The translations under genes were made by a program, and so were the position numbers. Shown here in pieces: positions 40,898-57,880 of a stretch of DNA of 64,000 nt. Position 1 is the stretch's first letter; the number at the start of each line of letters is the position of its first letter. Below the pieces are notes generated by a model. The model was not told the DNA's origin. It saw only the letters and a list, made by a program, of their open reading frames with translations, and did no database searches. This stretch comes from Tardiphaga sp. 709 (GTDB lineage: Bacteria; Pseudomonadota; Alphaproteobacteria; Rhizobiales; Xanthobacteraceae): NCBI RefSeq assembly GCF_032401055.1, contig NZ_CP135529.1, positions 4,524,501 through 4,588,500 of the forward strand, given 5' to 3'.

Positions 40898-40925
40898 GGC
40901 CGCCCTGATCGGGGCGGCCTTCGTT
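40898..40925 (+). terminator. Intrinsic terminator after MFS gene
   Basis: GGCCGCCC-N6-GGGCGGCC stem followed by TTCGTTCT, immediately before the riboswitch; it separates the MFS transcript from the ribH leader. Confidence 0.7.
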
Positions 40926-41067
40926 CTCAGGGCGGGGTGAAAATCCCCACCGGCGGTAATCGGGCGCAAGCCCGGGAGCCCGCGAGCGCCTGACGGGTTA
41001 CACCGTCAGGGTCAGCAGATCCGGTGCGATGCCGGAGCCGACGGTCATAGTCCGGATGAAAGAGAAC
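40926..41067 (+). promoter_or_regulatory. FMN riboswitch (RFN element)
   Basis: The conserved RFN blocks are all present: AGGGCGGGGTGAAAATCC with CACCGGCGGTAA, AGCCCGCGAGCG, the GGTCAGCAGATCCGGTG core, GATGCCGGAGCCGACGGTC, and the closing ATAGTCCGGATGAAAGAGA. It lies 84 bases before ribH and so represses lumazine synthase when FMN is plentiful, by termination or by hiding the ribosome binding site. Confidence 0.96.
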
Positions 41068-41124
41068 GGGTATGCGCAGGGACTCCGCCTCGGCGGATGC
41101 TCGGCGTGTGACCGTACGTCCTGA

Positions 41125-56919: not shown

Positions 56920-57036
56920 GGGGCAAGGCTCATCGAGTTGGACGAGGGGAACTGAACTATCCTTTTGGGTGAACTACGTGAACGCATGAGCGCGGCTTCA
57001 GTTGCATCCGGCATCGAAAAAATGCCCGGCGGGCAC

Positions 57037-57063
57037 TTGACAGTTTTCCTATAAGATTATAAT
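57037..57063 (+). promoter_or_regulatory. Consensus sigma-70-type promoter
   Basis: TTGACA (57037-57042) and TATAAT (57058-57063), both perfect consensus hexamers with a 15-base spacer, in an AT-rich patch (TATAAGATTATAATC). It points toward the structured element. The spacer is two bases shorter than ideal. Confidence 0.6.
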
Positions 57064-57079
57064 CAAATCCTGTCCGGTT

Positions 57080-57480
57080 CGCGAGGGGCGCTTCATGAGG
57101 CGTCTTGAGGTGGAACAGGGATGCGGCGCCTGCGGGCGTGGGGTGACGTACCCCGCGCACTCGGGAGGCCTTGGGTCACCGTCCGGCCCCACTACGGGGG
57201 TCTGCCACTCATGCTGGCTGGACGTGGCATTGGTGAACGGCGGGAAACCGTCGGGATCAGCGGAGTGCGGAGCTCTGCGCCTTTGCCCGGAAGAACGGTC
57301 CCGGGGACAGAAATCGCCGCGGTGGCGCGCCGTGAGGCGTTGCGCGGTTGCAGCTTGCCGGCGTTCCGGTGGAGCGGATCGCGATAAAAACCACCCTTTG
57401 CGCCTCACGGCGCGTCGCCACCCCTCATATTTTCGAGGGGCACTGCTCACACCTCGGACGCGCAAGCGCCGCGAGATTGC
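57080..57480 (+). ncRNA. Candidate structured RNA / conserved repeat element
   Basis: About 400 bases downstream of the consensus promoter with dense secondary structure: hairpin GGGGT-gacgt-ACCCC (57140-57154), GCCAC/GTGGC and ACGG/CCGT pairs (57200-57260), a perfect 14-bp stem CGCGCCGTGAGGCG/CGCCTCACGGCGCG (57326-57339 with 57401-57414) and CCCCTC-N8-GAGGGG (57421-57440). An ORF with two Cys pairs (CGACGRG, CHSC) opens at 57095, so a short peptide is possible. Similar sequence seems familiar from other Bradyrhizobium-type genomes, which is memory, not a search. Confidence 0.45.
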
Positions 57481-57535
57481 GAGCGCGTGGCTGTTTGAAG
57501 CGAAGAATCAGGGAACACGATGGCGCGGCAGCGCG

Positions 57536-57880
57536 CTAATGCGATGCGCTGGCCGAGAACGCATTGACGATGACCACGCCGGTCAGGATGAAGCCGATGC
57601 CGATAATGGCGGCGAGATCGAGCGCCTGCCGGAACGCGAAATAGCTCACCGCCGAAATCAGCACGATGCCGAGCCCGCTCCAGATCGCATAGGCGATCCC
57701 GACTGGCATCACCTTCAGCGCGTGCGACAGGAAATAGAGCGACAGGATGTAGCAGACGGCCATGCCGAACGTCGGCCAGAGCTTCGTGAACTGCTGCGAC
57801 TGCGCCAGCAGCGCCGTGCCGACGGTCTCCAGCACGATGGCGCAGCCGAGGGCGGCGTAGTTGAGGAAGGTCGGGGTCAT
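57536..57880 (-). CDS. SMR-family small multidrug/guanidinium-type transporter
   Basis: 114 residues from the ATG at 57880; the longer frame to 57934 has no membrane segment. Four spans are visible, with the conserved Glu in the first (AIVLETVGTALLAQ), the KLWPTFGMAVCYILSLYFLSHALKVMPVGIAYAIWSGLGIV segment, and a final hydrophobic helix. This is the EmrE/QacC drug:H+ antiporter pattern. No guanidine riboswitch is seen upstream, so a drug or quaternary-ammonium substrate is more likely than guanidinium. Confidence 0.9.
   Translation of the reverse strand: MTPTFLNYAALGCAIVLETVGTALLAQSQQFTKLWPTFGMAVCYILSLYFLSHALKVMPVGIAYAIWSGLGIVLISAVSYFAFRQALDLAAIIGIGFILTGVVIVNAFSASASH

Follow-up and report, generated by a model that had tools for sequence, protein, structure and literature searches.

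Large structured RNAs of bacteria such as OLE, GOLLD, ROOL, and HEARO, whose function is unknown, span hundreds of nucleotides and adopt an elaborate conserved structure. In rRNA, boxA is the NusB/S10 antitermination site and is located upstream of the RNA that it helps. In E. coli, Nus complexes are reported to work also at boxA outside rRNA, and at suhB the termination by Rho is promoted by boxA together with the Nus factors (PMC5725501). From Bradyrhizobium, the repeats Br-REP1 and Br-REP2, with printed consensus sequences of 20 and 40 nt, and the BjsR sRNAs, some of which occur in 2-4 copies, have been reported (PMC5082802).

The locus described here was noticed in a 64,000-nt stretch of the genome of Tardiphaga sp. 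709 (contig NZ_CP135529.1), hereafter called the window. It belongs to a family that resembles OLE, GOLLD, ROOL, and HEARO in its length of hundreds of nucleotides and its elaborate conserved structure but differs from them by the lack of an Rfam match, the presence of tens of dispersed copies, a boxA-like tail, and a distribution seen so far in Hyphomicrobiales. With rRNA operons the family shares a long untranslated structured RNA, a consensus-like promoter, and homogenized copies, and GGCTGTTTGACA is common to it and the boxA-bearing 16S leader of the same genome. Unlike in an rRNA operon leader, the boxA-like site is situated at the 3' end rather than on the 5' side, the RNA is unrelated to rRNA, and there are about 39 dispersed copies. 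Br-REP and BjsR likewise recur as structured repeats scattered between genes or as sRNAs with several copies, in the same bacterial family, whereas the RNA described here is about 420 nt long with a promoter of its own; as described in PMC5082802, both kinds of element differ from it in length and copy number. Upon ungapped comparison, the Br-REP1 and Br-REP2 consensus sequences printed there were absent from both strands of the unit (best agreement 12/20 and 19/40).

We consider it probable that the locus belongs to a set of about 39 RNA genes of sigma-70 type in the genome of Tardiphaga sp. 709, and that a highly structured non-coding RNA of ~420-550 nt is to be expected from each of them. 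We regard the RNA family as new: it fits no Rfam family, and no description of it in print was found, the literature search being a weak test with largely unrelated matches. At the gathering cut-offs of Rfam 15 the window yielded a single match, an FMN riboswitch, and nothing at the unit. E-value scans with the window copy and one subfamily-II copy (see below) gave chance-level matches (best E 0.35). The FMN riboswitch is located at 40919-41071 on the plus strand (115.1 bits, E 4.2e-26).

The unit of the window copy extends from 57037 to about 57509 on the plus strand, so that the coordinates given in a preliminary description of the locus (57037-57480) were slightly short. Its promoter hexamers, read directly from the sequence, are TTGACA at 57037-57042 (-35) and TATAAT at 57058-57063 (-10), where that description had placed them, and are separated by a 15-bp spacer. 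The RNA body, with both ends predicted, occupies 57072-57490, starts with GTCC at about 57072, and shows covariation over its length. It opens with a 5' hairpin (GAGGGGCGCT..AGGCGTCTT) at 57083-57106, followed by the core domain (57123-57320), which is closed by GCGGCG (57123-57128) and CGCCGC (57315-57320). The core is the basis of our covariance model R1; it differs in subfamily II and is retained in distant Hyphomicrobiales. The long 3' stem (57321-57419) is formed by the arms 57321-57339 and 57401-57419, a 19-nt pair with 89% complementarity, within which the previously noticed perfect 14-bp stem (57326-57339 with 57401-57414) was present as placed, as were the other hairpins. A local CCCCTC/GAGGGG hairpin lies at 57421-57440 (pairs of alignment columns 360-365 with 374-379). 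The GGGG of the 5' hairpin has an alternative partner in CCCC at 57421-57424, and 5' GAGGGG (57083-57088) may compete for the CCCCTC of the local hairpin, which would constitute a possible conformational switch; in the covariation analysis below, the competing pairing is helix 1. The 3' hairpin CTCGGACGC-GCAA-GCGCCGCGAG (57453-57475) is followed by a partly decayed boxA-like tail, GGCTGTTTGAAGCGAAGAATC (57489-57509), of which only the first ten bases are kept.

Blastn with the window copy detected 14 places in the genome (among the best 40 of 45 candidates), and blastn with a subfamily-II copy detected 28 (among the best 40 of 55). Three places were common to both searches, resulting in 39 copies, i.e. 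38 besides the window copy. Eleven belong to subfamily I (L001-L011, including the window copy and the partial L008) and 28 to subfamily II (L228-L255). The subfamilies have the promoter arrangement, the 5' hairpin, the 3' stem, and the tail in common and differ in their cores. Ten of the 11 subfamily-I copies (all but L008) were detected by model R1, which represents the core of that subfamily and found no subfamily-II copy. L253, L254, and L255, which are the same places as L012, L014, and L013, respectively, are chimeric, with a subfamily-II core and a 3' hairpin of subfamily-I type. Free-standing 3' fragments had also been considered, but three such places proved to be full-length subfamily-II copies.

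Conservation of the promoter was followed through both subfamilies. Among ten aligned subfamily-I copies of this genome, the -35 hexamer is exactly TTGACA in six and the one-base variant TTGACG or TTGGCA in four. In the 28 subfamily-II copies, bases 1-5 of the -35 hexamer are invariant and the sixth is at least 90% conserved; the -10 positions (TATATT) are 80-100% conserved and those of the spacer mostly 50-90%. GTCC, 7 nt past the -10 hexamer, is invariant in these 28 copies and opens a well conserved body. The hexamers being better kept than their spacer, conservation indicates selection on the promoter. Upstream of the -35 hexamer of subfamily II lies the AT-rich block AAACATTTTTTCCTAT, whose conservation is mostly 80-100% and which may be regarded as resembling an UP element. 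A consensus promoter scan requiring spacers of 16-18 bp reported none at the window copy, because the 15-bp spacer falls outside this range. The 15-bp spacing and the partly decayed tail suggest that the window copy may be weak. At L164, L172, L127, L108, and L150, the spacer between the hexamers contains a palindrome of the CCT..AGG type (e.g. ATCCTCATATAGGAT and TTCCTATGTACTAGGAA), which could be an operator.

The structure was evaluated with alignment A1, which comprises 56 copies from 18 genomes, retained from 70 near-full copies by a 93% redundancy filter and including three chimeric or subfamily-II copies. RNAalifold predicted 60 pairs, and compensatory double changes, by which structured non-coding RNA is recognized, were found at 34 of these. 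As evident from all five measures applied, the structure is far from chance, with none of 500 shuffles reaching the observed values: 95.0% of cells were paired (85.4% shuffled, 39.5-52.0% in slid controls), 286 cells had double changes (81.7 ± 6.8 shuffled, 36-68 slid), and the covariation score was 0.346 (0.175 shuffled, at most 0.108 slid). The structure was derived from the very alignment on which the pairs were counted, and the slid control therefore favors it; the gap to the controls is large, and the argument rests on its size. In helices 1-3 of the 5' hairpin, 97.2, 96.9, and 96.4% of cells were paired. Helix 10, the long 3' stem, was 96.1% paired with double changes at nine of 19 pairs, so that the compensatory changes sought in the 14-bp stem are present, and helix 12, the 3' hairpin, was 92.2% paired with double changes at all three pairs counted. 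Minimum free energy was evaluated as well: the plus strand folded at -216.6 kcal/mol, shuffled sequences on average at -195.8 (z -3.3), and none of the 100 shuffles equaled the plus strand; for the minus strand z was -2.4, and three of 100 shuffles folded as well. Read on the plus strand, G-U pairs are frequent, one pair being GU in 40 of 50 lettered cells; selection appears tied to this strand because such pairs would be A-C mismatches in minus-strand RNA. An additional hairpin of ~35 nt (CCCATAGCAGCCGCAGGCTGCGTAAACTTGCCTGCGA) was seen at the junction of core and 3' stem in L058, L060, and L079, from two species (G012 and G005).

A protein-coding reading of the frame through 57095 was ruled out. 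Frameshifting indels occur in all 55 other copies and in-frame stops in 48 of them, and differences at codon positions 1, 2, and 3 amount to 0.225, 0.278, and 0.282, so the frame is not kept and the changes are not concentrated at third positions. The preliminary description had argued that no gene explains the element and that it may be an undescribed RNA. The first statement held and the second is well supported: there is no coding signature, the hexamers are kept, compensatory changes occur in most helices, and no Rfam family corresponds. Neither the lack of homologues nor the codon-like substitution in the 57095 frame that would have spoken against that proposal was found.

The distribution of the family was assessed in other genomes. 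A DNA pattern of the core matched 104 stretches in a species-genome collection, 80 of which were listed. Model R1 was given 52 of 105 pattern loci (species-genome and viral-contig matches) and matched 45 of the 52 at E 0.01. Besides Tardiphaga, the matches stem from Pseudolabrys, Pseudorhodoplanes, Rhodoplanes, Bosea, Methylocystis, Methyloceanibacter, Aestuariivirga, Devosia (cut off by the contig end), and Hyphomicrobiales MAGs. One of the 45, in Streptomyces (L173, 25.1 bits, E 0.0011), was taken as chance, and so were the pattern matches in Streptomyces, Cellulosimicrobium, Chloroflexi, and a delta-proteobacterium that R1 did not match (L112, L110, L122, and L145) and that in the viral contig L208, where R1 did not find the RNA. 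Thirteen of the 14 genomes behind chosen loci matched R1, at 1-18 places each, and the Devosia MAG did not; these genomes had been picked for a matching locus, and the figures therefore reflect copy number, not prevalence. In an order-level sample at least six of 297 genomes matched under strict filters (best eight candidates per genome). The corresponding class-level figure (best seven candidates, strict filters) was at least one of 337, namely the genome of Tardiphaga sp. 709 itself, and says little on absence. Plasmid and phage collections gave no match by blastn in distant mode. Within the genus, each of G000, G001, G002, G005, and G010 had at least 25 subfamily-II matches, ten other genomes had 2-14, and one had none; several matches in G001 and G010 start at base 1 of a contig, as expected for near-identical repeats. 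The expectation that similar sequence recurs in Bradyrhizobium-type genomes held loosely, for a same-genus genome labeled Bradyrhizobium sp. NFR13, but not for the sister genus g25, which we take to be Bradyrhizobium: none of its 38 genomes matched the subfamily-I core model with 66 candidates scored per genome, an empty answer that alone shows nothing.

The distant copies displayed retain much of the plan of the unit. In a sample of 38 distant copies, mostly from other genera, 20 had a TTGAC no more than 170 nt before the core (in the wrong place in one of them, L166; some loci are cut off). Among 15 matches to the 3' hairpin pattern in this sample, the loop CCCG was accompanied by a downstream CGGG in seven and CCCC by GGGG in three, one was partial, and four did not represent this module. 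Loop and downstream complement are likely to form a pseudoknot.

The 3' end of the unit carries a motif that is also recognizable in front of rRNA. The tail contains GGCTGTTTGA, and its commonest form in Tardiphaga sp. 709 is GGCTGTTTGACAGTTGAATC. With up to one mismatch, the tail pattern occurred 19 times in the genome, as compared with no occurrence of the reversed pattern, and all 19 matches are located at the 3' end of copies of the RNA family. Of 38 copies judged, 27 possess the tail and 11 are without the motif by the regular expression used. In the distant sample, the motif was found downstream of seven of 38 copies, with eight matches in total in 579,020 bases over both strands. One 16S rRNA gene was found in the genome, and its leader carries GGCTGTTTGACAAGTTAAAT. 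This motif agrees with the tail form GGCTGTTTGACAATTGAATC at 16 of 20 positions (none of 1000 shuffled leaders as good), with the commonest form at 15 of 20 (5 of 1000), and with a third form at 13 of 20 (91 of 1000); the first 12-13 bases are identical between tail and leader motif. The 1499 nt that follow the 16S gene contained no good match to the tail. The tail thus resembles the likely boxA of the organism, less clearly for some forms, with the leader motif as the putative functional element. It is situated at the 3' end and not upstream of an RNA acted on, as would be expected of a boxA.

The surroundings of the copies were analyzed with gene calls from a home-made ORF scorer. The next downstream gene is antisense for 27 and sense for 12 of the 39 copies, and 17 of the 37 copies with both neighbors called lie between convergent genes. 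Among the 38 judged (one was too short, and the window copy was counted as tailless), the antisense/sense ratio was 22/5 with the tail and 5/6 without it (p 0.047). For copies in relatives it was 28/8 and 7/17, respectively (p 3.9e-4; 65 places after removal of three duplicates, two of them too short and three without a downstream gene), a value that overstates significance because of shared descent of loci. Where a tailless copy is followed by a sense gene, the gene begins within 121 nt in 18 of 23 cases. A simple test for a stem plus T run at the 3' end was negative in all 38 copies tested. A Pfam scan of 30 of the 39 downstream neighbors revealed mixed metabolic, transport, and regulatory genes, three of the 30 without any family, and no mobile-element protein family. 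At one tailless copy, a 105-aa ORF without Pfam match (L005:1928-2245) starts 32 nt past the copy.

Fixed loci were identified by setting the 39 copies against 36 loci selected from relatives, with both flanks required to match over at least 250 nt each; the relatives' loci were all fetched as copy-holders, so empty sites could not appear. Twelve of the 39 loci had syntenic counterparts, in 22 comparisons. In 16 of the 22, the best paralogue within the genome was closer than the orthologue (the lack of an alignable 200-nt orthologue counted as such), a comparison that favors the paralogue, as the best of up to 38 is set against one, and that rests on 12 loci. For L003, L004, L008, and three of four L007 comparisons, the paralogue was not closer or the case could not be judged. 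The window locus is common to G001, G010, G002, and G005. Identity between the window copy and its orthologue in G001 is 90.6%, with flanks of 96.4 and 97.6%, as compared with 96.5% between the window copy and L002 of its own genome; here the orthologous promoter was kept and the body changed. Seven loci carry subfamily II in Tardiphaga sp. 709 and subfamily I in the orthologue, and the promoter is also II-type at six of them (L249 being the exception), showing that conversion was not confined to the RNA. RNA-templated copying, with homogenized tracts ending exactly at the transcription start, was unsupported because of these six promoters. Taken together, the comparisons indicate that the RNA bodies undergo concerted evolution, for which interlocus gene conversion or homologous replacement would be the simplest cause.

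How these features bear on function was considered for several alternatives. A non-autonomous mobile element with a promoter, MITE-like or retro-copied, which the preliminary description had put forward, is unlikely. The 39 dispersed copies and the expansion of subfamily II in one clade (at least 25 matches in each of five genomes versus 0-14 in the others) would be in keeping with mobility. Of the inverted pairs in 56950-57560, moreover, a 12-nt pair with 92% agreement (56983-56994 with 57532-57543) flanks the unit, the window copy alone having been examined, and a 23-nt pair with 74% (57123-57145 with 57450-57472) lies inside it. Against mobility, however, stand the 12 syntenic loci, among relatives chosen as copy-holders, seven of them with subfamily I in the relative and II here; the lack of mobile-element protein families in the 30 downstream neighbors; and a structure under selection. 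As the main reading, mobility is not supported. It is highly improbable that the copies act at the DNA level as REP-like or architectural repeats with incidental RNA structure. Such a role could account for the location of 17 of 37 copies between convergent genes and for REP-like palindromes upstream of many copies but not for hexamers better kept than their spacer or for the frequent G-U pairs that tie selection to one strand. These palindromes (CCGGAATC..GATTCCGG) recur upstream of the promoters of many subfamily-II copies and are similar by eye to Br-REP1.

A cis-acting leader or riboswitch for the downstream gene, suggested by the 12 of 39 copies with a sense gene next to them and by several recurrent contexts (amidase, TetR, TctC receptor), is very unlikely in view of the 27 copies followed by an antisense gene and the functional unrelatedness of the genes scanned. 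Somewhat less improbable is a decoy for Nus factors: many boxA-tailed RNAs would bind NusB, S10, and SuhB in competition with the single rRNA operon and so tune ribosome synthesis. The one 16S rRNA gene found as opposed to 27 boxA-tailed copies among 38 judged, the resemblance of the tail to the rRNA boxA of the same genome, and the reported action of Nus complexes at non-rRNA boxA elements in E. coli (PMC5725501) would agree with such a decoy. Eleven of the 38 copies are devoid of the motif by the regular expression, however, the conserved core is left unexplained, and the commonest tail form matches the leader more weakly, which lowered our estimate; we regard the decoy as rather doubtful.

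We favor a stable RNA that would act in trans and have a 3' end of the Nus/Rho type. Transcription would start at GTCC near 57072, as judged from the promoter, and the RNA would fold into the 5' hairpin, the core domain, and the long 3' stem and function, as such or as an RNP, away from its own locus. Action in trans is favored because the neighboring genes examined are unrelated and those downstream are mostly antisense. In solitary copies, the boxA-like tail would serve as a NusB/S10 site and define where the RNA ends, probably via Nus/Rho-dependent termination, a type of end proposed because no intrinsic terminator was seen and the tail is mostly absent where a sense gene starts close downstream. 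Nus/Rho termination at boxA, by analogy with that reported for suhB (PMC5725501), would explain the loss of the tail before close sense genes, and a tailless unit with such a gene would serve as promoter plus leader. The termination role is a guess, the boxA of rRNA lying upstream instead.

Copy number, promoter conservation, and homogenization suggest abundant production of this RNA in the cell. A bolder proposal, which we advance only tentatively and would not expect to hold, is an unrecognized rRNA-like class of stable RNA, made from dispersed, gene-converted genes with consensus-like promoters, whose 3' boxA would recruit the ribosomal Nus factors and thereby provide a link between the one rRNA operon and a second RNA with interchangeable cores. 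If so, the copies would set ribosome synthesis or form a separate RNP machine. A large, strongly constrained RNA with tens of copies in Tardiphaga and several in other genera appears to be absent from the RNA catalogue searched. The family opens to test the role of a highly dosed structured RNA in Hyphomicrobiales and of a boxA at a 3' end, and also how dispersed bacterial RNA genes stay alike or swap subfamily at fixed loci.

A gene for a small multidrug resistance protein of the SMR/SugE type (57536-57880, minus strand) adjoins the RNA unit in the window. Among 25 relatives searched, near-identical full-length matches to this gene were present in G001 and G010 only, which perhaps reflects recent insertion or loss elsewhere. 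The window locus itself is found in G002 and G005 as well, and the RNA locus is therefore not tied to the SMR gene.
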